A stretch of DNA of 37,264 nt from Frankiaceae bacterium. Lineage in GTDB: Bacteria > Actinomycetota > Actinomycetes > JAFAQI01. This document shows positions 16,354-33,371 of the stretch, in pieces. A model generated the notes under the pieces. That model was not told where the DNA came from. It ran no database searches and saw only the letters and a list, made by a program, of their open reading frames with translations. Made by a program: the position numbers and the translations under genes. The DNA is taken from positions 1 to 37,264 of the forward strand of contig JAICMG010000010.1 in the NCBI GenBank assembly GCA_025929365.1. Reading direction: 5' to 3'. Every line of letters begins with the position of its first letter. Position 1 is the stretch's first letter.

Positions 16354-17919
16354 CTAGGCCGTCGACTCGACCCGGAACTTCGCGATCGCGGCACGAAGCT
16401 CCGCAGCGAGATTGTTCAGCTGCGCCGCGGCCGCGGCTGACTGCTTCGATCCTTGGGCGTATTGGCGAGACACATCCGAAACCTGGGTCATCGCCGACAC
16501 GACTTGATCCGACGCACTGCGCTGCTGCTGGGTCGCGACCGAGATCTCCTTGCTGGCCGTCGTCGTCTCCTCCACCATGCCGGAGATCCGCTCCAGGGCA
16601 TCGACAACCCCGCGGGCAAGCTCGGAGCCCGTGCTGGCCTCTTTCGCTCCCTCTTCACTCGCCATGATCGTCGCCGCGGTCTCGGCCTGGATCTCACTCA
16701 CGATCGCCGCGATCTGGCCGGTCGACTCCTGAGCCCGCTCGGCAAGCTTGCGGACCTCGGCCGCCACGACCGCGAAGCCGCGACCGTTCTCGCCGGCGCG
16801 CGCGGCTTCGATCGCGGCGTTGAGGGCGAGCAGGTTCGTCTGGTCGGCGAGGTCGTTGATCACATCCAGGATCCGGCCGATCTCCTGGCCCTTCTCGCCG
16901 AGCGAGAGAGCACGTCCGCCGATCTGGTCGACCCGCGCCGCGATCGCGTCCATCGCGGCGACCGAGGCGGTCACCGCCTCCCGTCCCTCCTCGGCGTGCC
17001 GCAACGTCTCCCCGGCGTAGCGGGCGACCGCCTCCGACGTCTCCGCGATCTGGGCCGCGGTCGCAGCCAGCTCCTCGATGGTCGAGGTCGTCTGCGTCAC
17101 CGCGCTCGACTGCTCCGTTGCGCTCGCCGCATGCTGCTCGGCGGACGAGAGGAGCTCATGGGCGGATGCCACGATCTGCTCCCCACCGGACCGGATCTGC
17201 CCGGCGAGCTCACGAAGGCTGCGAAGCGTCGCATCCATCGCCTCACACAGCGCAGCCACGACCGGGTTCGTCTCGTCGTCAGCGCGAACGTCGACGGCGA
17301 GGTCGCCGTCGGCCACCCGCCCGAGTGCGTCGCTGAGGGTCCGCACCCGCTGCTCGAGTGCGCGCCGCTCGTCGCGCGCGTCGCTGCGCATCGTCCACAG
17401 CGACGAGCTCAATGCCCCGCTGAACCATGCGCTCAACGGCAGCAGCGGCAGAGCGATCGCGAGAAATGGATAGTCCCGCTCGTGCAGGGTGCCGGCGATC
17501 GATGAGCTCACCACGACGCCGATCGAGGAGACGACGCCCAGCACGAGACTGCCACGCTGACGCATCGACACGGTCGCGAAGAGAACGGTCGGTACGTAGA
17601 GAACCCAGAACGGTCCGCGCACCCCTCCTCCGAAGGTGACGAAGCCGCTCGTGTAGACGAGGTTCGCGGCCAGCAGCACACCACGGAAGACCTTGATGTG
17701 GTCACGGACGAAGACGTTCGAGTCGACCAGCCCAGGCATGAGACTCTGCGCAATGGCGCACAGCAACCCGAGACCGGCGGAGGCCATGAACGGCGCCAGG
17801 TGGATCGGGATGCCGGCTTGAGGGAAGTGCCGGAACAGCAGGCCGGCGGCCACGCCGATCACGACCTTGGCCCAGACGGAGACGACGGCGATGACCGCGA
17901 GGCGCTTCGAGAAGTCCAT
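16354..17919 (-). CDS. Methyl-accepting chemotaxis protein, tandem paralogue 3
   Basis: A 521-residue receptor, third in the minus-strand order. The N-terminal ~195 residues hold about six hydrophobic helices with no large extracellular sensor domain, so the membrane part itself probably senses. A HAMP-like stretch (about 205-260) precedes the long coiled-coil signalling domain. Its hairpin tip contains [19 protein letters not shown] and [17 protein letters not shown], the CheA/CheW contact region. No C-terminal CheR-docking pentapeptide is seen. Its start lies 7 nt after the stop of the upstream paralogue, so the three form an operon. No che or flagellar gene is in the window. Confidence 0.93.
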
Positions 17920-17926
17920 CGTTCCG

Positions 17927-19486
17927 CTACTCCGCCTCGACCCGGAACTGAGCGATTGCCGCGCGCAACTCGGCCGCGAGGTTGTTCAGCTGCGCCGCGG
18001 CTGCGGCGGCCTGCTTCGAGCCTTGTGCGTACTGGCGGGACACGTCGGACACCTGGGTCATGGCCGACACCACCTGATCCGACGCCGACCGCTGTTGTTG
18101 CGTCGCGATCGAGATCTCCTTCGCGGCGGTCGTGGTCTCCTCGACCATCCCCGAGATCCGCTCCAGGGCCGCAACCACGCCGCGCGCGAGCTCCGACCCC
18201 GTGCGCGCCTCCTTGACCCCCTCCTCGCTGGCGAGGATGGTCGCCGACGTCTCGGCCTGGATCTCGCTGACGATGGCCTGGATCTGGCCCGTGGACTGCT
18301 GCGCCCGCTCGGCCAGCTTGCGCACCTCGGCGGCGACGACCGCGAACCCGCGACCGTTCTCCCCGGCACGCGCCGCCTCAATCGCCGCGTTCAAGGCCAA
18401 CAGGTTGGTCTGGTCGGCCAGGTCATTGATGACGTCGAGGATGCGACCGATCTCCTGGCCCTTCTCGCCGAGCGACAGCGCACGACCCCCGATCTGGTCC
18501 ACGCGGGCCGCGATCGCATCCATCGCGGCGACGCTGGCCGACACGGCGTCCTGACCTTCCTCGGCGTGCCGCAGCGTCTCGGCGGCGTACCGTGCCACGG
18601 ACTCCGAGGTTTCGGCGATCTGCGCCGCGGTGGCGGCAAGCTCCTCCACCGTTGAGGTGGTCTCGGTGACGGCGCTGGACTGCTGGGTCGCCGACGCCGC
18701 GTGCTCCTCCGCCGACGCAACGAGCTCGTGCGCCGCGGCAACCAGCTGCTCACCGCCGCCGCTGATCGACCCGACGAGGGTGCGAAGCGAACCGAGCGTG
18801 TGCGACAGCGACGCGCTGAGGGCGCGAAGCGAGTCGTCGTCGAAGGCCTCCAGGGCGACGCCGGCCCCGAGGTCGCCGTCCGCGGCTCGGGCCATGACGG
18901 TCGACAGCTGCTCGACGCCGCTTCCCAGCTGCTCCTTGTCGTGGACGGCGCGCTCCTGCGCCCTGCGAATGGCATCCGTGATCGTGCCGATGTAGTAGGC
19001 GGTCACCGGCAGCAGCGTGCCGACGAAGATCAGCGAACCGCGGTTGTTGGCGGTGAGGGTGCCGGCAACGGACGACGCGACCACGACCCCGCCCGTCGCC
19101 AAGAACCCGAACGCCACCGTGACGAAGATCGGGACACTCAGCGCTGCCGGCACAAGGGCGACGATGAAGAACAGCCAGAACGGCCGTTCGATCCCGTCCG
19201 TGATGGCGCAGAGCCAGGTGAGGCCGGCGGTGCTGACGGCGAGCTGGATGGTCGATCCGATCGGGCTCAGCCGCAGGCTGCCCACTCGCCCGAAGGCGGA
19301 CTGGACGCTATAGCCGAGCGCGATCGCACCGATGATTCCCATCAGCAACACGTAGACCCAGTGCCGCAGGTGGTGGTCTGAGCCGTACTGGTCAACGCTG
19401 AGCGTCACCGCCAGCGCGACCGTCGTGATCCACGCAACGTACGTGCCGACCTGGTCGAAGCGCTTCTCGAAGTCGTAGTCCTTCAT
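17927..19486 (-). CDS. Methyl-accepting chemotaxis protein, tandem paralogue 2
   Basis: A 519-residue receptor starting [12 protein letters not shown], middle gene of the array. It has the same plan as its neighbours: about six membrane helices (residues 15-185), a HAMP-like linker ([18 protein letters not shown]), then a signalling domain with the conserved hairpin [19 protein letters not shown] and [17 protein letters not shown]. From about residue 240 onward it is nearly identical to both neighbours, while the membrane part is divergent. This suggests different inputs to one shared output. Seven nt separate it from the gene on each side. Confidence 0.93.
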
Positions 19487-19493
19487 CTGCCCG

Positions 19494-21038
19494 TCAGGCC
19501 ACCTTGAACTGCGCGATCGAGGCCCGAAGCTCGGCCGCGAGGTCGTTGAGCTGTGCTGCGGCGGCTGCTGACTGCTTGGAGCCCACCGCGTACTGCTGGG
19601 AGACGTCGGACACCTGGGTCATCGCAGCGACCACCTGATCCGACGCCGAGCGCTGCTGCTGAGTCGCCACACTGATCTCCTTCGCGGCGGTCGTCGTCTC
19701 ATCGACCATCGCGCTGATGCGCTCCAGGGCATCGACAACCCCCCGTGCCAGTTCCGACCCCACGCGTACCTCCTTGGCACCCTCTTCGCTGGCGATGATG
19801 GTCGCCGACGTCTCGCTTTGGATCTCCGACACGATCGTCTGGATCTGGCCGGTGGACTGCTGCGCCCGCTCGGCGAGCTTGCGGACCTCCGCGGCGACGA
19901 CGGCGAAGCCGCGGCCGTTCTCCCCGGCCCGGGCTGCCTCGATCGCGGCGTTGAGCGCGAGCAGGTTGGTCTGGTCCGCGAGGTCGTTGATCACATCGAG
20001 GATGCGGCCGATCTCCTGGCCCTTCTCCCCCAGGGACAGCGCCCGACTGCCGATCTGCTCGACCCGCGTCGCGATGGTGTCCATCGCTGCGACGCTGGCC
20101 GTCACGGCGTCCTGACCCTCTTCGGCGTGGCGCAACGTCTCCGCGGCGTACCTCGCAACGGCCTCCGACGTCTCCGCGATCTGGGCAGCGGTGGCGGCGA
20201 GCTCCTCGATCGTCGAGGTCGTCTCGGTCACCGCCGAGGACTGCTGCGTCGCGCTGGCGGCGTGCTGCTCGGCGGAGGCCAGCAGCTCGTGCGCAGCGGT
20301 CACGAGCTGCTCACCACCGGTACGAATCTGCCCGACCAGACCACGCAGGTTGCTGAGCGTGTCGTCGAACGAGGCGGCGAGCTGGGCCAGCAGCTCCTGT
20401 GCCATCTCCTCCGAGGCGACCTGCACGGACAAGTCGCCCCGCGCGGCCCGCGCGAGGGCGACGGAGAGCTCTTCGACGGTTCGATGAAGGTGGGCGCGCT
20501 CGGCATCGGACCTGACCGCCTGCTCCTGCAACCGCGTCGCGACCGCGCTGCCGAGCAGCGCGATCAACATCGTCGAGACGCCGATGAGTGCGAGCGGGCC
20601 GGCAGTGTGCCGGTTCAGCGTGTGGGCGAGCGCCGTCGCGGCGACCAGAGCACCGACATAGAAGGTGGACGCGCCGAGGGCGAGTCGCCGGTTGGGGGCG
20701 ATCACCGCCGCGGCGGTCGTGTTGACGAGGATCAACGCCCAGAAGGGCCCCGCAGCGCCCCCCGTCAGCGCGATGAGGGCGAACAGCGCGGCGAAGTCGA
20801 TACCCGCAATGAGCGCGAGCATTGGTATGTCGAGGGACGGTGACGCCGCGACGACGCGCGGATAGATCGGCACCAGGATCGGCGAGACGAGCCCCGCGGC
20901 AACCCAGATCAAGATCACGTTGCGGTGGTCGTGCGTGGGACCGGTCCCGTAGTGCGCCATCAGCAGAACGGCGATCGCCGCCCCGATGAACTTGCCCCCG
21001 GAAGACAGGGCGCTCTCCCCGCGCATCCGATCGATCAT
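19494..21038 (-). CDS. Methyl-accepting chemotaxis protein, tandem paralogue 1
   Basis: A 514-residue receptor, first gene of the array. ATG 21038 is chosen because AGGGGG stands about 6 nt upstream; ATG 21053 lies before that site. About six membrane helices (residues 10-190) carry no extracellular domain. The HAMP-like linker ([16 protein letters not shown]) leads to the signalling domain with [19 protein letters not shown] and [18 protein letters not shown] perfect 6-bp palindrome CTCGCG-TG-CGCGAG (21060-21073) sits just upstream and may be a regulator site for the operon. It is divergent from the thiolase operon. Confidence 0.93.
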
Positions 21039-21147
21039 GGACGGCCCCCTCATACGTCACTCGCGTGCGCGAGCGACACCCTCAGTCTCCTGAGATTCGC
21101 CAACCGGCGCCACGGTCCTTGCACCACCGTTGACGCACGCGGGCAGA

Positions 21148-25561: not shown

Positions 25562-27223
25562 ATGAAGGTGGCGACCGCGAGCCGGCATCTCGGGCGCTAT
25601 CGCGACATCGGGCGACTCCTGCTGAAGTACGGCCGGTCCGATCTGGTGCAGCAGGCGGGAATCGACACGACGTTGCTCGACGACGTCGAGCCCGAGGGCG
25701 CCCGCGCGGAAGGCGTCGAGCTCGCGGCCGACCTGGAACGGCTCGGGCCGACCTTCATCAAGCTGGGCCAGCTGCTCTCGACCCGGGCGGACCTCCTGCC
25801 GGCGCCGTATCTCGAGGGGCTGTCTCGGCTGCAGGATCGACTCGAGCCGTTCCCGTTCGACGACGTGCGCACGACGATCGAGGACGAGCTCTGCGTCCGC
25901 CTCTCGCGCGCCTTCAGCGACTTCGACGAATTGCCGATGGCCGCCGCGTCGATCGGGCAGGTGCACGCCGCCGTCCTGCGTGACGGTCGGGAAGTCGTCG
26001 TGAAGGTGCAGCGTCCCGGCATCCGCCATCAGGTCTTCGACGACCTCGAGGTGCTCGATGATCTCGCCGAGCGGATCGAGGCGCATTCCCAACGAGGGCG
26101 GCTCATCGGGGTCACGGGACTCATCACCCAGTTCCGGAAGTCGCTGCTGGACGAGCTCGACTACCGCAAGGAAGCCAGCAACCTGCTGCGGCTGAATCGG
26201 ATCGTGGACGAGCGTCCGGAGCTCGTCGTTCCCAAGCCGTACGACGACTTCACCACGGGCCGCGTTCTCACCATGGAGCGAATCCGCGGTCACAAGGTCA
26301 CCGACATCTCACCGCTGGCACGCCTCGAGCTCGACGGAGAGGCGCTGGCCCGGGCGCTCTTCGACGCCTACCTCGACCAGATCCTGGTGGAGGGCTTCTT
26401 CCACGCTGACCCGCATCCGGGCAACGTCCTGCTCACGCCGGACAAGCGGCTCGGCCTGATCGATCTCGGGATGGTGGCGCGCGTCGCCCCCGAGATGCGT
26501 GACCGGCTGCTCCGCCTGCTGCTCGCCCTCGGCGAAGGCCGCGGCGAGGAGGTCGCGCGCGTCGCCGCCGAGATGTGCGAGTCGACGTCGAGGTACGACC
26601 CGCGTCGCTTCACGGCAGACGTCGCAGACCTGGTCGAGCGCACGGCGACCTCGACCATGGAACAGATCGAGGCGGGGCGGCTCGTCCTCGACCTCACGAG
26701 AGCGTCGGCGGCAGCCGGCCTTCGCCCGCCGCCCGAGCTGTCGATGGTCGGCAAAGCGCTGCTCAACGTCGACCACGTCGCCCGCTTCCTCGACCCTGAG
26801 GTCGAGCCGGTGCAGATCGTGCGCGAGCGCGCCGTACGCCTCGCGGGCGGCGGGGTCCGACCGTCGCTGTCCGGGGTGCTGAACGCGGTGCTCGAAGCGA
26901 GGGAGTTCGCCGAGCAGCTCCCCGGCCGGGTCAACCGCGCGATGGACGCGCTTGCCGGCGGCCGCTTCGAGCTGCAGATCCGAGCCTTCGACGAAACCGA
27001 GCTACTGCGCGGCCTGCACCGGATGGCCAACCGGGTGGCGACCGGAGTCATCCTCTCGTCGCTCATCATCGGCGCGGCCCTGTTGTCGAACGTGCACACC
27101 ACCGCCCGGATCGCGGGCTACCCCGCGGTGGCGTTCGTGTGCTTCCTCATCGCCGCCATCGGGGGCGCCTACCTCGTGCTGAGCATCGTCATCGGCGACC
27201 ACAAGCTGCGCAATCGGGAGTGA
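25562..27223 (+). CDS. ABC1/ADCK/UbiB-family atypical kinase
   Basis: A 553-residue UbiB-family protein. The family's KxGQ motif is K67-LGQ, followed by the Ala-rich nucleotide loop AAASIGQVH (127-135), catalytic Lys148 in VVVKVQRPG, and DELDYRKEASN. The catalytic loop HADPHPGN is at 281-288 and the metal-binding DLG begins at D301. Two C-terminal hydrophobic helices (about 490-550) anchor it to the membrane. Homologues support ubiquinone or other isoprenoid lipid homeostasis by ATPase activity; in menaquinone-using actinobacteria the substrate is unclear. The ATG has only GGGGA about 13 nt upstream. Confidence 0.93.
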   Translation: MKVATASRHLGRYRDIGRLLLKYGRSDLVQQAGIDTTLLDDVEPEGARAEGVELAADLERLGPTFIKLGQLLSTRADLLPAPYLEGLSRLQDRLEPFPFDDVRTTIEDELCVRLSRAFSDFDELPMAAASIGQVHAAVLRDGREVVVKVQRPGIRHQVFDDLEVLDDLAERIEAHSQRGRLIGVTGLITQFRKSLLDELDYRKEASNLLRLNRIVDERPELVVPKPYDDFTTGRVLTMERIRGHKVTDISPLARLELDGEALARALFDAYLDQILVEGFFHADPHPGNVLLTPDKRLGLIDLGMVARVAPEMRDRLLRLLLALGEGRGEEVARVAAEMCESTSRYDPRRFTADVADLVERTATSTMEQIEAGRLVLDLTRASAAAGLRPPPELSMVGKALLNVDHVARFLDPEVEPVQIVRERAVRLAGGGVRPSLSGVLNAVLEAREFAEQLPGRVNRAMDALAGGRFELQIRAFDETELLRGLHRMANRVATGVILSSLIIGAALLSNVHTTARIAGYPAVAFVCFLIAAIGGAYLVLSIVIGDHKLRNRE

Positions 27224-27385: not shown

Positions 27386-27563
27386 GATTTGCCTCCGTCC
27401 GTCCCAACTCTCGGGGTTGCTGGTTGTGACGAAACCAGCGCGAGGTCGTCCCGCCGTGTCGGTGGTGTGGAGCGGCTGTGAAGATGGATCAGGAACGCAG
27501 ATCGGCGGGCGGCCGGCAATTTCGATCGGCCGAGGCCGTTGGATCGGTGCGGAGGTCCAAGCG

Positions 27564-28259
27564 GTGGCGACGATCCTGGTGGTCGAGGACGAACGCAAGC
27601 TGCGGGAGCTACTGCGCTCCTACCTGGAGCGGGAGGGGTTGTCGGTGTTGTCGGCCGGCACCGGCGCGGAGGCGCTGTCCATCGCCGACGAGGCCAGTCC
27701 CGACCTTGTCGTGCTCGACCTCGGCCTCCCGGACATCGGTGGTGACACGGTCGCGATTGAGCTGCGGCATCGGTCCAGCGTCCCGATCGTCATGTTGACT
27801 GCGCGTGCCGACGAGGCCGACCGCATCCGCGGCCTCCAGCTTGGCGCCGACGACTATGTGACCAAGCCGTTCAGCCCGCGTGAGCTGATGCTTCGGATAC
27901 GCGCGGTACTGCGTCGCACCGCACCGGAAGGCACGGAGCCGCGGCGCAGCTACGGCGCGGGCGCGATCGTCATTGATGAGCCGACCCGGTCAGTGCGGGT
28001 AGGCGGCCAGGAGGTGCGGCTGACGCCGACCGAGTGGGGATTGCTGCTCGCCCTCTCCGGTGCCCCCGGGCGGGTCTTTTCAAGGGCCGAGCTGATCAAC
28101 CGGGTACGCGCACATGAGTTCGAAGGTTACGAACGCAGCGTCGACTCGCACATCAAGAACCTGCGCCGAAAGATCGAGGCGGATCCCGCAAACCCCGCCG
28201 CTGTACTGACCGTGCTGGGCGCCGGCTACCGGTTCGGCCTGCCCCGCGACCCTTCGTAG
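27564..28259 (+). CDS. OmpR/KdpE-family response regulator
   Basis: A 231-residue two-component regulator. The receiver domain has acidic E8/D9, phospho-acceptor D52 in VVLDLGLPD, T79 in VMLTARAD and K101 in VTKPFSP. The winged-helix output domain includes LTPTEWGLLLALSGAPGRV and SVDSHIKNLRRKIEADP. GTG 27564 is chosen on GGAGG eight nt upstream; the frame extends to 27255 without family sense. It converges on the ATP synthase b-like gene with a 10-bp gap. The nearest kinase (30356-31720, opposite strand) is probably its partner although four genes lie between. Confidence 0.92.
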   Translation: MATILVVEDERKLRELLRSYLEREGLSVLSAGTGAEALSIADEASPDLVVLDLGLPDIGGDTVAIELRHRSSVPIVMLTARADEADRIRGLQLGADDYVTKPFSPRELMLRIRAVLRRTAPEGTEPRRSYGAGAIVIDEPTRSVRVGGQEVRLTPTEWGLLLALSGAPGRVFSRAELINRVRAHEFEGYERSVDSHIKNLRRKIEADPANPAAVLTVLGAGYRFGLPRDPS

Positions 28260-28269
28260 ACCGGCGAGG

Positions 28270-28833
28270 TCACGGGACCATCGCCGGCACATGCGGTGAT
28301 ATGGAAGGCGCGGCCTTACCGGCAGGAGAAGCACGATTGCCATCGCCTCCGTCGAGCCGCTCGTCGACCAGGCGCGACAGCGAGGCGACGTCGACATCGG
28401 TGCCGAGATAAGCCTGCGCTGCGGTGATCGCAGCGGTCCGCGCCTGCTGACGGAAGCGCCGCGAGGACAAATCGGAGCGGCGCTGCAGTTCTCGGCCGGC
28501 CCGCCCGGCGAGCCAGCGGTACTCCTCCACACCAGCGGTGCGCCCTTCGGCGATCAGATGATCGCGCACCGCACGCGCCTGGTCGGTGATCGCCCTCGCG
28601 TCGCGACGCGCATCCGCCCGGATCCGGGCCGCCTCAGCCTCGGCGTCCTCGGTCCGTGCTTCGGCTGCCTCAGCGGCGGCCAGCGCGGCAACGATGCTGT
28701 TCTGCCGCTCGGCCATCGCGTTTCGGATCCGCGGCACGACGTAGCGGGACATCACAGCGAGTACCGCGATGAAAGCCGCCATCTCGATGAAGAAGGTCGC
28801 GTCGGGGACGAGGAAGTTGCGGGTGGTCATCAT
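28270..28833 (-). CDS. Orphan F-type ATP synthase subunit b-like protein
   Basis: A 187-residue protein with the b-subunit plan. A single N-terminal membrane helix (FFIEMAAFIAVLAVMSRYVVP) is followed by RIRNAMAERQNSIVAALAAAE and a long Ala/Glu/Arg-rich helix (AEAEAARIRADARRDARAI) that forms the peripheral stalk. The C-terminal 30 residues are Pro/Ser-rich. It lies 19 nt after the subunit a-like gene. No subunit c, delta or F1 gene is nearby, so it must pair with parts from elsewhere or do something else. A weak AGGA lies 8 nt before ATG 28833. Confidence 0.85.
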   Translation of the reverse strand: MMTTRNFLVPDATFFIEMAAFIAVLAVMSRYVVPRIRNAMAERQNSIVAALAAAEAAEARTEDAEAEAARIRADARRDARAITDQARAVRDHLIAEGRTAGVEEYRWLAGRAGRELQRRSDLSSRRFRQQARTAAITAAQAYLGTDVDVASLSRLVDERLDGGDGNRASPAGKAAPSISPHVPAMVP

Positions 28834-28852
28834 CAGCGGTTTCCTTTGACGG

Positions 28853-29548
28853 TCATCGGCTCGGGATTGGGCGCGGGGGACGAGTAAGGCCGCCGCCGCT
28901 GCTTGGCAACACGGCCTGGAAGTACAGAATGGTCAGCAAGGCGAAGATGAATGCCTGAATCGCGCCGATGAACACGTCGAACAGCGACCACAGCACGTGC
29001 GGCACGACAGCGGCCGGAGTCGGGAGGATCTCCCCGATGAGCAGGAGCATCAGGGCGCTGGCGAAGACCATGCCGAACAGTCGCAGCGCCAGCGTCATCG
29101 GTTTGATTGCTTCCTCGGCGATTTTGACGGGCGCAAGCCACCACGGCGACAGATAGTGGCGCCAATAACCGCGCGGCCCTCGCACTTGTATTCCCGTCAG
29201 GTGCACGACTCCCATTGCGGTGAGCGCCAACGCCAGCGTCAGGTTGATGTCGGAGGTGGGAGCGGGAAGCGGTGATCCTGGGATCAGGTGCAACCAGTTC
29301 GCCGCCGCCACGAACCAGAACAGCGTGACCGCCGTTGCTGTGACGCGGCCCCGTACCTCGTCAGGTAGGTCTGCCGCGGCCCGGTCGGCTACGTCGATGC
29401 TCATCTCCCACAACAGTCGGATCCCGCGGGGGGTCGCCGGCCGCGATCCGGGCCGTGCCAGCAGGCCGAGCGTGACGACCAGGACGCCAACGGCCAGGGT
29501 TGCGATCGCGATGTCAGCTTGGATCGAGACTGCTTTCAACGCGGACAC
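28853..29548 (-). CDS. Orphan F-type ATP synthase subunit a-like protein
   Basis: A 231-residue membrane protein with about five or six helices. The proton half-channel helix reads EEAIKPMTLALRLFGM, giving the essential Arg (R156), and the last helix IQAFIFALLTILYF keeps Gln198. Against E. coli subunit a, Asn214 is Met160, Glu219 is Ala165 and His245 is Asp191, so several polar channel residues differ. Upstream helices include FWFVAAANWLHLIPG, as in true a subunits. GTG 29548 overlaps the upstream finger-protein gene by 13 nt, so translation is coupled. The normal gene order a-c-b is broken by the missing c. Confidence 0.88.
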   Translation of the reverse strand: MSALKAVSIQADIAIATLAVGVLVVTLGLLARPGSRPATPRGIRLLWEMSIDVADRAAADLPDEVRGRVTATAVTLFWFVAAANWLHLIPGSPLPAPTSDINLTLALALTAMGVVHLTGIQVRGPRGYWRHYLSPWWLAPVKIAEEAIKPMTLALRLFGMVFASALMLLLIGEILPTPAAVVPHVLWSLFDVFIGAIQAFIFALLTILYFQAVLPSSGGGLTRPPRPIPSR

Positions 29549-29745
29549 CCTGCTGTTTCTGACTGGCGCGCCCGTGGTGCTGCGTCCGACTGTGGCTTGG
29601 CGCTGACGGCGGGTTCGGCGGGTGAGTCAGGGTCGTGTGTTACCACCTCCGGATTCCTGGGTCGGTGGTCGGTCGCGAGGTGCGCCTCGACCTCGGTCCG
29701 GAACGAGAACTTGAGCTCGCAGCGCGGGCACTGGTGGGCGGACAT
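29536..29745 (-). CDS. Small C2H2 zinc-finger-like protein
   Basis: A 69-residue protein. The first 27 residues hold a single C2H2-type finger: C6-x2-C9, x12, H22-x4-H27 (QCPRCELKF, then AHLATDH), followed by a disordered Pro/Ala/Ser tail. GGAAGGAAG lies 6 nt before the ATG, and the stop overlaps the ATP synthase a-like start by 13 nt. Single C2H2 fingers are uncommon in bacteria; it may bind DNA, RNA or a partner protein in a zinc- or redox-dependent way. Confidence 0.75.
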   Translation of the reverse strand: MSAHQCPRCELKFSFRTEVEAHLATDHRPRNPEVVTHDPDSPAEPAVSAKPQSDAAPRARQSETAGCPR

Positions 29746-29775: not shown

Positions 29776-30234
29776 TCACGGGCGGCCGGAGCTCGCCGCG
29801 GCGGGGACGATGACGATCGGGCAGCGGGCACGGTGCGACGGAGCCGTCCCGCCTACCTCGGCTGGGTCACCGAGAACGAGGACGTCACCCGGCTCGATCG
29901 CCTCGGCGAGCAGTCCGCTGAGACTGCCGCGCCGCACGATGCAGTCGGCCTCATCCAGCCACGGCCGGCTCTTCATCAAGTCGCGCCGCAGCCGCTGCTG
30001 GCACCGGATCGCCTGTTCGATGGTCTTCGGCGCGTGCTGTGACTCTGGGTCGGCGAATGCCGTCACGATGCATAGCGGCACACCGCGGCACCAGGCCTCG
30101 TCCGCCGCCCACGCAAGGGCCTCTTCCGAGGCCAGTCGGCGGTCCACGGCGACCACGACCCTTGGCACCGTCGGCTCAGGCCGCTCCGTCGAGGCGACGG
30201 CAGTGCCAGGCGTCACGCTGTCGATCAATGGCAT
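29776..30234 (-). CDS. Universal stress protein (UspA family)
   Basis: A 152-residue Usp-fold protein. The opening strand is PRVVVAVDRRLASEEALAWAADEA with the usual Asp after VAV. The C-terminal region is VLVLGDPAEVGGTAPSHRARCPIVIVPA, where the ATP-binding Gly-rich motif is only partly kept (GxxxxGG, Ser absent at the usual place), so nucleotide binding is uncertain. GGAG lies 7 nt before the ATG. It heads the sub-cluster with the finger protein and the ATP synthase a/b-like genes, 30 nt away, and follows the kinase gene by 121 bp. Confidence 0.9.
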   Translation of the reverse strand: MPLIDSVTPGTAVASTERPEPTVPRVVVAVDRRLASEEALAWAADEAWCRGVPLCIVTAFADPESQHAPKTIEQAIRCQQRLRRDLMKSRPWLDEADCIVRRGSLSGLLAEAIEPGDVLVLGDPAEVGGTAPSHRARCPIVIVPAAASSGRP

Positions 30235-30343
30235 TTGACTGCTCCATCCGCGTTGGGGCCGGAGTGCCCTTGTGGCTCATCGCGATTTCAGCGAGAGATC
30301 GCGGAGACGGCGCGCGCAGCGAGTGGAGATCGGATGGAGACGT

Positions 30344-30363
30344 CCGGTTGAGCTGTCAACCGG
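30344..30363 (-). terminator. Hairpin spanning the histidine kinase stop codon
   Basis: CCGGTTGA-GCTG-TCAACCGG is a perfect 8-bp stem with a 4-nt loop. It begins in the last codons of the kinase gene, whose TGA is in the stem. It could partly terminate or stabilise the kinase transcript and set a different level for the downstream genes. Confidence 0.4.
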
Positions 30364-31720
30364 TCCAGTTAGGCAACTTCACCGTGACCGTCGTTCCGGC
30401 ACCTGGTTCGCTGACGACCGAGATGGTCCCGCGATGGGCGCGGACGAGGCCGGCCACGATCGGCAGGCCGATGCCGGTACCCGGCCGTCCCGCGGCGTTC
30501 GGGCCGCGCCAAAACCGATCGAAGATGTTCGGCAGGTCGTCGGCGTGGATTCCCACGCCGGAGTCCGCAACCGTCAGCAGGACATGATCGTCGACGGGCT
30601 CGACGATGAGGTCGACCGTCCCCTCTTCGGGAGTGAACTTCACGGCGTTGGTCAGCAGATTCAGGACTACTTGGCGCAGTCGGTCGGAATCGCCAACCAC
30701 GATCGCGGGATGCAACCTACGGTGCAGGTCGATGCGCGCCGCGTCGAAGCGGGAGGCGAGCGAGTCTGCGGCAGCGGCCGCGATCTCGGACAGATCCGTG
30801 GTCGTCAGCGTGAGGTTCAGCGCTGCCGCGTCGGCGGCCGCGAGCGTTTGCAGATCCGCGACGAGCCGGCCGAGTCTCAGCACCTCGCCATGCAGTGAGT
30901 TGAGTTCCTCCGGCGTCGGGGCCGTGATTTGGTCGAGCAACGCTTCGCATCCGGCTTGCAGGACCGCCACCGGAGTGCGCAGCTCGTGGGCCACGTCGGC
31001 GACGAGGTCGCGGCGCAACTGCTCCTGCCGCGCGAGGTCGTCCGCCATCGCGTCGAGGCTTCCGGCGAGCTCACGAATCTCCCCGGGAGCGTCGATGGCA
31101 CCGACGCGCGCGCCTCGGTCGCCTCGGCCGACGGCGCGGACCATCCCGATGAGCTGCGAGATCGGGCGGGTGAGCCGGCGTGATGCCACTGCTGCCACGA
31201 GCAGCGCAAGCAGGCCGGCGAGGCCGGCCGCGGCGAGTACGGCGAGCAACAACGACTTCTGAAGGTGGCGGGCGGAAGCGTCGATGCCGCGGTCGCTGAA
31301 CCGGATCAGCAAGGTGCCGACCGTCGCATTGTCGACCCGGATCGGGAAGCGTGCGGCGTCGTCGGCGCGGCCGATTCCGGGCTGAGATTCGGTGACCAGC
31401 TTCCGGCTCAGGTCGATGACCGCGATCTGCGCCCCGGTCTGGCGCGCGAGCACCACAGCGGGGCGCAGGTCGGCGTCGGTCCAGCTCGGTCTCCCGGTGT
31501 TGTAGGCCGATGCCGCGTCGGCGACCAGCGAGCGGGCGAGGTCGTTGCGGCGCTGGTCGGCAAGGGTCGAGAGGTCGTGGTCGGCGAAGATCACGGCGAG
31601 GGAGGCGACCAGCCCGAGCGACACCGCTGCGACCAGAACGAACGCGAGCATGAGCCGCCACCTGATGCCCCACCGCCGACCTGCCCTGTCACCTCCGCGA
31701 ACTGCTAGTGACGGCAGCAC
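30356..31720 (-). CDS. Sensor histidine kinase (HAMP, HisKA, HATPase)
   Basis: A 454-residue membrane kinase. Two transmembrane helices (about 22-46 and 154-178) bracket a ~105-residue extracytoplasmic sensor. A HAMP domain follows, then the H-box VADVAHELRTPVAVLQ (phospho-acceptor H245), N-box LLTNAVKFTP (N358), G1 VADSGVGI and G2 RPGTGIGLPIV. GTG 31720 is chosen to keep the basic stretch before helix 1; ATG 31651, with AGGTGG six nt upstream, is an alternative and the open frame runs back to 31972. It follows the DedA gene by 44 nt. Likely partner is the OmpR-type regulator at 27564. Confidence 0.9.
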   Translation of the reverse strand: MLPSLAVRGGDRAGRRWGIRWRLMLAFVLVAAVSLGLVASLAVIFADHDLSTLADQRRNDLARSLVADAASAYNTGRPSWTDADLRPAVVLARQTGAQIAVIDLSRKLVTESQPGIGRADDAARFPIRVDNATVGTLLIRFSDRGIDASARHLQKSLLLAVLAAAGLAGLLALLVAAVASRRLTRPISQLIGMVRAVGRGDRGARVGAIDAPGEIRELAGSLDAMADDLARQEQLRRDLVADVAHELRTPVAVLQAGCEALLDQITAPTPEELNSLHGEVLRLGRLVADLQTLAAADAAALNLTLTTTDLSEIAAAAADSLASRFDAARIDLHRRLHPAIVVGDSDRLRQVVLNLLTNAVKFTPEEGTVDLIVEPVDDHVLLTVADSGVGIHADDLPNIFDRFWRGPNAAGRPGTGIGLPIVAGLVRAHRGTISVVSEPGAGTTVTVKLPNWTG

Positions 31721-31764
31721 ACCCGCTGAGTTCGGGTTCGACACGAGCCTGACGTTAGACCCGC

Positions 31765-32373
31765 TCAACGCGTGGCTGACGCCGCGCGCCGCCGGATCAA
31801 CCAGCGAGCCGCTTCGGTGGCGGCCGCGACCGCAAAGGCGATACCGAGGGCGACGAGAACCCCCTTCCAGGCCTGATGTTCGAACGCCCGTCCCCCGAAG
31901 TAGCCGAGCAGCGCGGCGTAGGCGGACCAGAGAAGTGCGGCGCCTGCGTCGTACGCGGCGAACTCGCGCCACGGAAAGTGCGTGAGGCCCGCGGTGAGGG
32001 TGACGGCAGTGCGGCCGCCCGGGATGAAGCGACCGACAGCGATGAGTTCGCCGCCACGTTGTTCAAGCTGCCGTGCCGCCCAATCGATCCGCGGGCGTGT
32101 CTTCGCCCCGTTGGTGAACCGGTCCCCGGCCCGGCGGGCGTAGCGGCGGCCGACGCCGTAGGCGAGGTTATCTCCGAGAAACGCGCCAATCGCGGCGGCC
32201 ACGATGACAAGAAGGAGGACGAGGTCGCCGCCGGCCGCGACCACGCCAGCGGTGATCACGGCGGTCTCGCTGGGCACGAGCGGCAGGAGTGCGTCAATCA
32301 GCGCCAAGAGCAGCACGACGGCGTACGCCCACCCGGACGCTTGACTGACGAGGTGAGTGAACTGGTCGAACAT
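31765..32373 (-). CDS. DedA-family membrane protein
   Basis: A 202-residue integral membrane protein of the DedA/VTT family. Typical signatures are LLPLVPSETAVITAG near residue 30 and GRFIPGGRTAVTLTAGL near 115, the re-entrant-loop motif with its conserved Arg. Members move polyprenyl- or phospholipid head groups across the membrane using the proton or sodium gradient. Its ATG shares one base with the TerC stop (TGATG), so translation is coupled. Confidence 0.92.
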   Translation of the reverse strand: MFDQFTHLVSQASGWAYAVVLLLALIDALLPLVPSETAVITAGVVAAGGDLVLLLVIVAAAIGAFLGDNLAYGVGRRYARRAGDRFTNGAKTRPRIDWAARQLEQRGGELIAVGRFIPGGRTAVTLTAGLTHFPWREFAAYDAGAALLWSAYAALLGYFGGRAFEHQAWKGVLVALGIAFAVAAATEAARWLIRRRAASATR

Positions 32374-33371
32374 CAGCGAGTAGTGGCTCGCTCGTGAGAG
32401 GGGCTATCTCCCGCCCCACCTTCGGTCACGCTCCCTCCCTCGCGGCGGTGGGAGGCGCGCAGACTCGTCACGGCCGTCACGCCGAGCACGCCGAGCACGA
32501 CGAGCAGGGAGACGAGGGTCGAGATCTCCGGGACGGCCGGGTTGACCGTGTGCGCGTAGTGCAGGACAAGCTTGACGCCGATGAACACGAGGACGAGCGC
32601 GAGCCCATAGTGCAGGTGTACCAAGCGGTTGAGCAGGCCGACCAGCAGGAAGTACAACGCCCGGAGTCCGAGTAGTGCGAATGCGTTGGCGGTGAAGACG
32701 AGGTAGCCGCTGTCGGTGATTCCGAAGATGGCCGGAATCGAGTCGAGCGCGAACAAGATGTCGACCGAGAGGATCGCGATGGCGGCGACAAGCAGTGGTG
32801 TGGCGGCGCGCCGGCCATCGACCCGTGTAAGGAGCACGTCCTGCTGGTAGCCGTCGGTGACGGGCATGACCTTACGGAGCAACCGGACAGCACGGTTGTT
32901 GGCGACATCCGGGGTCTGTCCGTGCGCGCGGACCAGGTGGACGCCGGTGTACAGCAGGAACCCGCCGAACACGACGAAAGTCACAGCGAACCGCTGAACG
33001 ACGGCGGCACCGGCGGCGATGAAGGCGGCGCGCAGGGCAAGCGCGCCAACTACGCCGATGAGCAACACCCGCTGCTGGTTGCGGGCGGGAACCGCGAACT
33101 GGGCGAGGATGACCGCGAAGACGAAGAGGTTGTCAACCGAAAGGCTCTTCTCGACGAGGTAGCCCGCGAAGTAGGCGGTGGCCGGCTTACCGCCGGCGAA
33201 AACGGCGAGTGCGGCGCCGAACAGCACGGCAACGCCGACATAGACCAGCGACCAGGTCAGCGCCTCGCGGAACTGCACTTCGTGCGGCCGTCGCGCCTGC
33301 CACGCGTCCGCCGCGACCAGCAGGCCGACGCCGGCAACGGTCACGAACCAGCCCCAGAGCGGCACGGTCAC
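32373..33371 (-). CDS. TerC/Alx-family membrane metal transporter
   Basis: A 332-residue TerC-family protein with about nine helices. Both halves carry the acidic metal-site motifs: EKSLSVDNLFVFAVI in the first and SVDILFALDSIPAIFGI in the second. Alx/TerC proteins export manganese or insert metal into secreted enzymes. The C-terminal 30 residues are hydrophilic. GTG 33371 has GGGAG six nt upstream. It heads the minus-strand cluster and has a structured leader between it and the tRNA-Arg gene. Confidence 0.93.
   Translation of the reverse strand: MTVPLWGWFVTVAGVGLLVAADAWQARRPHEVQFREALTWSLVYVGVAVLFGAALAVFAGGKPATAYFAGYLVEKSLSVDNLFVFAVILAQFAVPARNQQRVLLIGVVGALALRAAFIAAGAAVVQRFAVTFVVFGGFLLYTGVHLVRAHGQTPDVANNRAVRLLRKVMPVTDGYQQDVLLTRVDGRRAATPLLVAAIAILSVDILFALDSIPAIFGITDSGYLVFTANAFALLGLRALYFLLVGLLNRLVHLHYGLALVLVFIGVKLVLHYAHTVNPAVPEISTLVSLLVVLGVLGVTAVTSLRASHRREGGSVTEGGAGDSPSHERATTR

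Follow-up and report, generated by a model that had tools for sequence, protein, structure and literature searches.

The usual view of ATP synthase is of a machine whose stator is single and fixed. In flagella, conditions choose among alternative stators (MotAB/PomAB) acting on one rotor; to our knowledge, stator exchange has been described for flagella but not for any bacterial ATP synthase. The MotAB and PomAB proteins are unrelated to Fo subunits a and b, and the comparison with the gene pair described here is a functional analogy only. That extra Fo subunits can be encoded outside the main operon is already known: genes duplicated off the main operon include subunit a in Saccharopolyspora erythraea and a full Fo, comprising a, b and c, in Desulfococcus oleovorans (PMC4154653). 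Operons of N-type ATPases (Na+ or alternative F1Fo) add a second set of rotary-ATPase genes to the usual one and encode c, F1 subunits and atpR of their own. An engineered multi-stalk FoF1 offers a single c-ring more than one a-b stator and depends on a delta-alpha fusion that lacks the delta N-domain (PMC12229609).

The pair analyzed here lies in a stretch of 37,264 nt (the window, to which all coordinates refer unless another locus is named) belonging to a 92% complete genome of 246 contigs (G000). Like housekeeping Fo a (PF00119) and b (PF00430), the orphan proteins show the expected fold families, the catalytic Arg and Gln, the a-b gene order and the b anchor and tether. Unlike them, they are encoded without c or F1 genes, within a two-component cluster, and they combine a Met at the position of E. 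coli N214 in subunit a with a b that lacks the delta-binding signature. The S. erythraea case involves a alone and is a species-level duplicate, whereas the orphan pair comprises a and b, occurs in two genera and is linked to a regulator; the D. oleovorans set includes c, which the orphan pair does not. An N-ATPase is ruled out, as the cluster has no c, F1 or atpR gene, and the multi-stalk enzyme, although it resembles the pair in having an additional stator, is artificial. In the open-licence papers searched and in our surveys, we found no other a-b pair that lacks c, crosses genera, is linked to a regulator and has lost the F1-docking signature. We consider it fairly probable that the pair forms a regulated alternative a-b stator acting on the housekeeping ring. 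If this is true, bacteria could change the gearing of a single rotor, vent it or brake it as needed, and the natural variant bears on two textbook questions, the role of N214 and the working of an uncoupled Fo in living cells.

An a-b pair additional to the housekeeping operon

Profile searches of G000 gave exactly two matches to subunit a, two to b and one to c. Contig C178 carries housekeeping a, c and b together, followed by full-length delta, alpha, gamma and beta genes. Given this complete operon with its own a, c and b, and the single c, the orphan pair is extra to the housekeeping enzyme and not the only a and b of the genome, a point that the first-pass annotation of the window had left to be checked. 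That annotation described adjacent a and b genes with no F1 gene nearby, and this arrangement is borne out: both reading frames are intact and lie 19 nt apart (28270-29548, minus strand), a gap with no space for atpE, and no c or F1 gene was found in the cluster near the pair. A missed atpE between the two genes is therefore ruled out. The same annotation raised the possibility that the pair works with another ring, for which there is no candidate, because only one c gene was found in each of the two genomes that carry the pair, G000 and G002.

The features of the cluster are collected in Table 1. The zinc-finger ORF (ZnF) and the start of a share 13 nt; the Usp-like gene lies 30 nt further upstream. 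On the basis of this spacing, Usp-ZnF-a-b looks like a single operon, of which the Usp-like gene is likely the first gene. The best NCBIfam matches of the histidine kinase are BaeS models, under their cut-off. Near the pair, an Rfam scan returned tRNA only, and promoter and terminator scans around it gave nothing useful.

Table 1. Features of the orphan a-b cluster (window positions unless a locus is named)
Feature	Position	Strand	Remarks
UbiB-like gene	25562-27223		
Weaker repeat copy	27468..27484	-	Two mismatches; 5' of response regulator; alone could be chance
Response regulator, OmpR/PhoB type	27564..28259	+	PF00072 and PF00486; convergent with b; start likely GTG 27564
Orphan Fo subunit b-like gene	28270..28833	-	PF00430, 46.5 bits; 187 aa
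Orphan Fo subunit a-like gene	28853..29548	-	PF00119, 137.4 bits; 231 aa; GTG start; alternative start codon TTG at 29539
Small C2H2-like zinc-finger ORF (ZnF)	29536..29745	-	69 aa; under Pfam cut-off
Usp-like gene	29776..30234	-	PF00582, 23.6 bits, just below cut-off of 24
Predicted operator TCTCCA-N5-TCTCCA	30324..30340	-	Exact; 90 nt 5' of Usp-ZnF-a-b
Sensor histidine kinase	30356..31972 (ORF as listed)	-	HAMP, HisKA, HATPase_c; true start probably near 31.7 kb
DedA-family (VTT domain) membrane protein	31765..32373	-	PF09335
TerC/Alx-family membrane protein	32373..33371	-	TIGR03718, 351.9 bits; clears Alx subfamily cut-off of 246.4
Further repeat positions	L133 9611-9627; L133 8788-8804; L077 6149-6165		

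Conservation, distribution and origin of the pair

A survey of the family found the pair in 2 of 12 genomes, G000 and G002, which belong to different genera. Both known members come from metagenome assemblies. Orphan a is about 54-55% identical between the two genomes and orphan b 45%, and in G002, too, no c lies alongside. Synteny extends to the regulator (69%), the kinase (51%), the ZnF ORF, a, b, the DedA gene (47%) and the TerC gene (47%), with DedA adjoining b and TerC near the pair in G002. An assembly chimera is unlikely, as the pair lies well within its contig and is syntenic in this independent genome. The ZnF ORF occupies the same position in both, with conservation (70% identity over 27 aa) confined to the zinc-finger part; the G002 version (L035 6773-7195) is longer, at 140 aa versus 69 aa in the window, and carries a membrane helix at its C terminus. 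A UbiB-like gene was not found near the G002 pair. The first-pass annotation had suggested looking in relatives for the same pair next to a Usp gene. The pair does recur, in one other genus, but Usp is not its fixed partner: in G002 this position is taken by DksA-like and CBS-domain genes.

Orthologs of the regulator occur in three other genera at 69-72% identity (G002, 69%; G005, 72%; G006, 71%), and no a-b pair was found beside those of G005 and G006. In G006, Usp and DksA-like genes adjoin the regulator, the Usp-like protein being 57% identical to that of the window. The pair is also absent from a 98% complete genome of the same genus as G000 (G001).

Searches at higher rank, with the window protein as query against 395 genomes of the class and with a two-sequence profile against 396 genomes of the phylum, returned no further close relative; the other loci examined in the class search were a-c-b operons. 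Scans of contigs gave no match in a first round and the G002 contig alone in a second; because such scans need exact short peptide patterns, distant members may escape them. No close relative was seen among plasmids and viral contigs, and a plasmid or viral origin is unsupported, the one Tsukamurella plasmid match being a full operon. In a PF00119 survey of the class, 16 genomes had at least two matches, and on follow-up six of these multi-a genomes carried an additional a for which neither c nor b was detected within about 1.5 kb (L100 in G241, L102 in G135, L103 in G143, L104 in G299, L105 in G094 and L107 in G315). The lone second a proteins keep the H/E half-channel pair and, in the five that were aligned, N214; where placed on the tree, they cluster with the housekeeping a of their own lineage. 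One example of such a lone second a, that of S. erythraea, has been published (PMC4154653). At L103-L105 the lone a is followed by a gene for a 94-aa two-helix membrane protein. Among the genomes surveyed, a limited sample, an a-b pair without c is found in G000 and G002 alone.

Two other multi-a loci deserve brief mention. An a-c-a-c-b tandem on one contig (L056 and L110, G082:C294) is either a local a-c duplication or an assembly artefact. The second "a" of G028 (L020, contig C140) resembles plant mitochondrial atp6 and reads as contamination.

A tree of 74 a proteins places the two orphans together in a clade of their own (support 100) that has a long stem and lies outside the family housekeeping clade. 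A recent duplication of the housekeeping genes is not seen in this tree, although grouping the orphans with the family housekeeping a is not rejected by an AU test (p 0.516). The pair may have arisen by either ancient duplication or transfer. Between the two genera, housekeeping a is 86% identical and orphan a 55%, indicating that orphan a evolves faster or split earlier. In both orphan a and orphan b, codon positions 1 and 2 are far better conserved than position 3 between G000 and G002, a pattern consistent with purifying selection.

Channel residues of a and the C-terminal end of b

The window's orphan a matches the whole PF00119 domain (positions 4-217 of 217). Against the TIGR01131 cut-off of 102.6, the window copy scores 101.8 and the G002 copy 110.5. 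We compared the orphans with 66 housekeeping a proteins, using E. coli numbering. The essential Arg and Gln noted in the first-pass annotation, R156 (E. coli R210) and Q198 (Q252), both of which face the rotor, align with the same residues in 66 of 66 housekeeping proteins, and the half-channel acids E145 (E196 column) and D191 (H245-type) are likewise kept. That annotation also listed Met, Ala and Asp at three polar channel positions of E. coli subunit a. Of these, only the Met stands out: Met160 occupies the N214 position in both orphans, compared to Asn in 64 and Thr in 2 of the 66 housekeeping proteins, so that Asn is common here and not strictly defining. There is nothing unusual among actinobacteria in Ala (E219) or Asp (H245): housekeeping a proteins often have Gly at 219 and Asp at 245, as does G000's own. 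Further departures common to both orphans are Ser at G218 and His at the variable D119 site. E. coli mutants in which Val, Leu, Gln or Glu replaces N214 still grow on succinate but show a marked drop in ATP-coupled proton conductance (PMC11121307). With N214L, the fitted pKa values are 0.7 higher (PMC8754430, table 1); the substitutions in these two studies do not include Met. AlphaFold models of subunit a (pLDDT 59 and 52) were too weak for use. In G000's housekeeping a (L036 5382-6521), the last helical hairpin, FDSGLIAPIQAF, is one residue longer than the FDVFIGAIQAF of the orphan.

In known enzymes, the C-terminal segment of b binds delta. To score orphan b, models were built from housekeeping b proteins with the orphan's family left out. 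Over residues 1-118, comprising the membrane anchor, hinge and tether, the orphans score 86.6 and 81.6 bits, close to E. coli b (89.7). Over the C-terminal segment, they score -0.5 and -4.0 bits. E. coli b reaches 34.6 bits here, the family's housekeeping b proteins reach 48-58, and other housekeeping b proteins, scored by leave-one-out, range over 23-80. This end is the least conserved part of b between the orphans and among the most conserved parts between housekeeping b proteins. The Pfam b match is full-length in the window copy and limited to positions 1-87 of 132 in the G002 copy; both proteins have an EYRWxAG motif in mid-stalk. Orphan b thus retains the membrane and tether half and has lost or replaced a recognizable F1-docking end, with the caveat that an absent delta-binding signal is not proof of lost binding.

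These results bear on the suggestion, made in the first-pass annotation, of a replacement stator brought into the housekeeping enzyme under stress. Here, orphan a and b2 would take the place of housekeeping a and b2 in a full FoF1 that stays coupled, with an altered pH optimum, slip or speed; such a coupled spare would be an example of ATP-synthase stator exchange. The a residues thought essential for rotation are all present, housekeeping delta and c are available, over its first 118 residues orphan b is no less b-like than E. coli b, and the window b gives its full-length Pfam match. However, the lack of a delta-binding C-terminal signal in either orphan b argues against a simple swap, as do the poor conservation of this segment between the orphans and the shortened Pfam match in G002. 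The suggestion is weakened but keeps some force, chiefly in the event that orphan b and housekeeping b pair with each other, and we regard it as possible but unlikely.

Less probable again, and in our view quite doubtful, is a decoy or assembly inhibitor, in which orphan a-b would bind c-rings or assembly factors and so reduce the number of active enzymes while passing no protons. The surfaces needed for interaction, helices 5-6 of a and the membrane half of b, are kept and the F1-docking end is not, and the Met at position 214 might close off the inlet (PMC11121307). A pure decoy, however, would not need R210, Q252 and the half-channel acids, which are kept in both genera.

Probable regulation and possible role of the pair

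Direct repeats with a period of about one helical turn are the form bound by PhoB/OmpR-type regulators. Side-by-side reading of the cluster intergenic regions revealed such a direct repeat, TCTCCA-N5-TCTCCA, with an 11-bp period. In addition to the window, exact copies lie 5' of a DksA-like gene in G002 and in G006, and these are the only three places with an exact copy among the 138 loci examined. In G006 a weaker copy lies 5' of Usp; G002 has weaker copies 5' of both ZnF-a-b and the regulator, and the window has one 5' of the regulator. The cluster intergenic DNA, 1.7 kb in all, contains 8 sites with at most two mismatches, compared to 0.09 expected and a maximum of 2 in 400 simulations, figures that overstate the significance of the repeat because the motif was spotted by eye before counting. 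Other spacers yield 0-2 sites, and none was found in the stretch of the housekeeping atp operon examined. The stronger argument is the independent recurrence of the repeat at cluster promoters in three genomes.

This recurrence, 5' of the operon and at related cluster promoters, suggests that the adjacent two-component system probably controls orphan a-b through the predicted operator. The presence of the repeat at DksA-like and Usp promoters without adjoining a-b, in G006, indicates a regulon older or wider than the pair. The link to stress proposed in the first-pass annotation is strengthened by the common operator-like repeat and the conserved two-component system.

By analogy, the neighbors of the pair point to stress affecting pH or the proton-motive force. 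The genes listed as base-induced in E. coli include alx, dedA, ubiB, cpxAR and several atp genes (PMC1626474), and mutants of the DedA family show sensitivity to alkaline pH (PMC10846249). It is the tie of DedA and Alx-type TerC to alkaline pH in that organism that suggests the theme, an analogy that reaches across distant bacteria.

Given the Met at position 214 and the lack of a clear delta-docking end, we propose that the alternative stator is a throttled proton valve or brake. A membrane signal would activate the kinase and regulator, and binding of the regulator to TCTCCA-N5-TCTCCA would induce the operon. The a-b module would then insert and engage the cell's only c-ring, its presumed partner. 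With an inlet half-channel that has Met where E. coli has N214, proton entry may be slowed or shifted in its pH dependence, and a b without a recognizable delta-binding end may couple to F1 weakly or not at all. The outcome would be slow proton passage without tight coupling, or a held ring, serving proton-motive-force or pH homeostasis and not a full ATP-synthesizing spare. Taken as a whole, this chain (a conditional a-b stator, controlled by the two-component system, working on the housekeeping c-ring as a throttled valve or brake) is tentative, and somewhat more likely to fail at one of its steps than to hold throughout. Its more specific form, in which a signal-regulated, F1-uncoupled Fo stator turns the ordinary c-ring into a switchable throttled proton valve that adjusts proton-motive force or internal pH under stress, is distinctly unlikely as it stands. 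Two points run counter to the proposed chain: an a-b complex not anchored by F1 might simply rotate with the ring, and orphan b could pair with housekeeping b.

The pair could also be a relict or weakly selected duplicate that rides with the regulator cluster and has no distinct role. Its patchy occurrence (2 of 12 family genomes, with a nearly complete genome of the same genus lacking it), the divergence of orphan a between genera (55% identity versus 86% for housekeeping a) and the lone extra a genes of several other Actinomycetes are what such a duplicate would lead one to expect. Yet two genera have kept both a and b intact, with unchanged gene order and a purifying-type codon pattern; the orphans have the derived Met160 and EYRWxAG in common, and the operator-like repeat accompanies them. 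We give this explanation little credence. A natural multi-stalk enzyme with two a subunits per ring is thought unlikely because the housekeeping delta of G000 is full length (275 aa).

Elsewhere in the window, at 16354-21053, lie three similar tandem genes of ~520 aa whose translations have the look of methyl-accepting chemotaxis-type receptors; they look like a recent tandem duplication.
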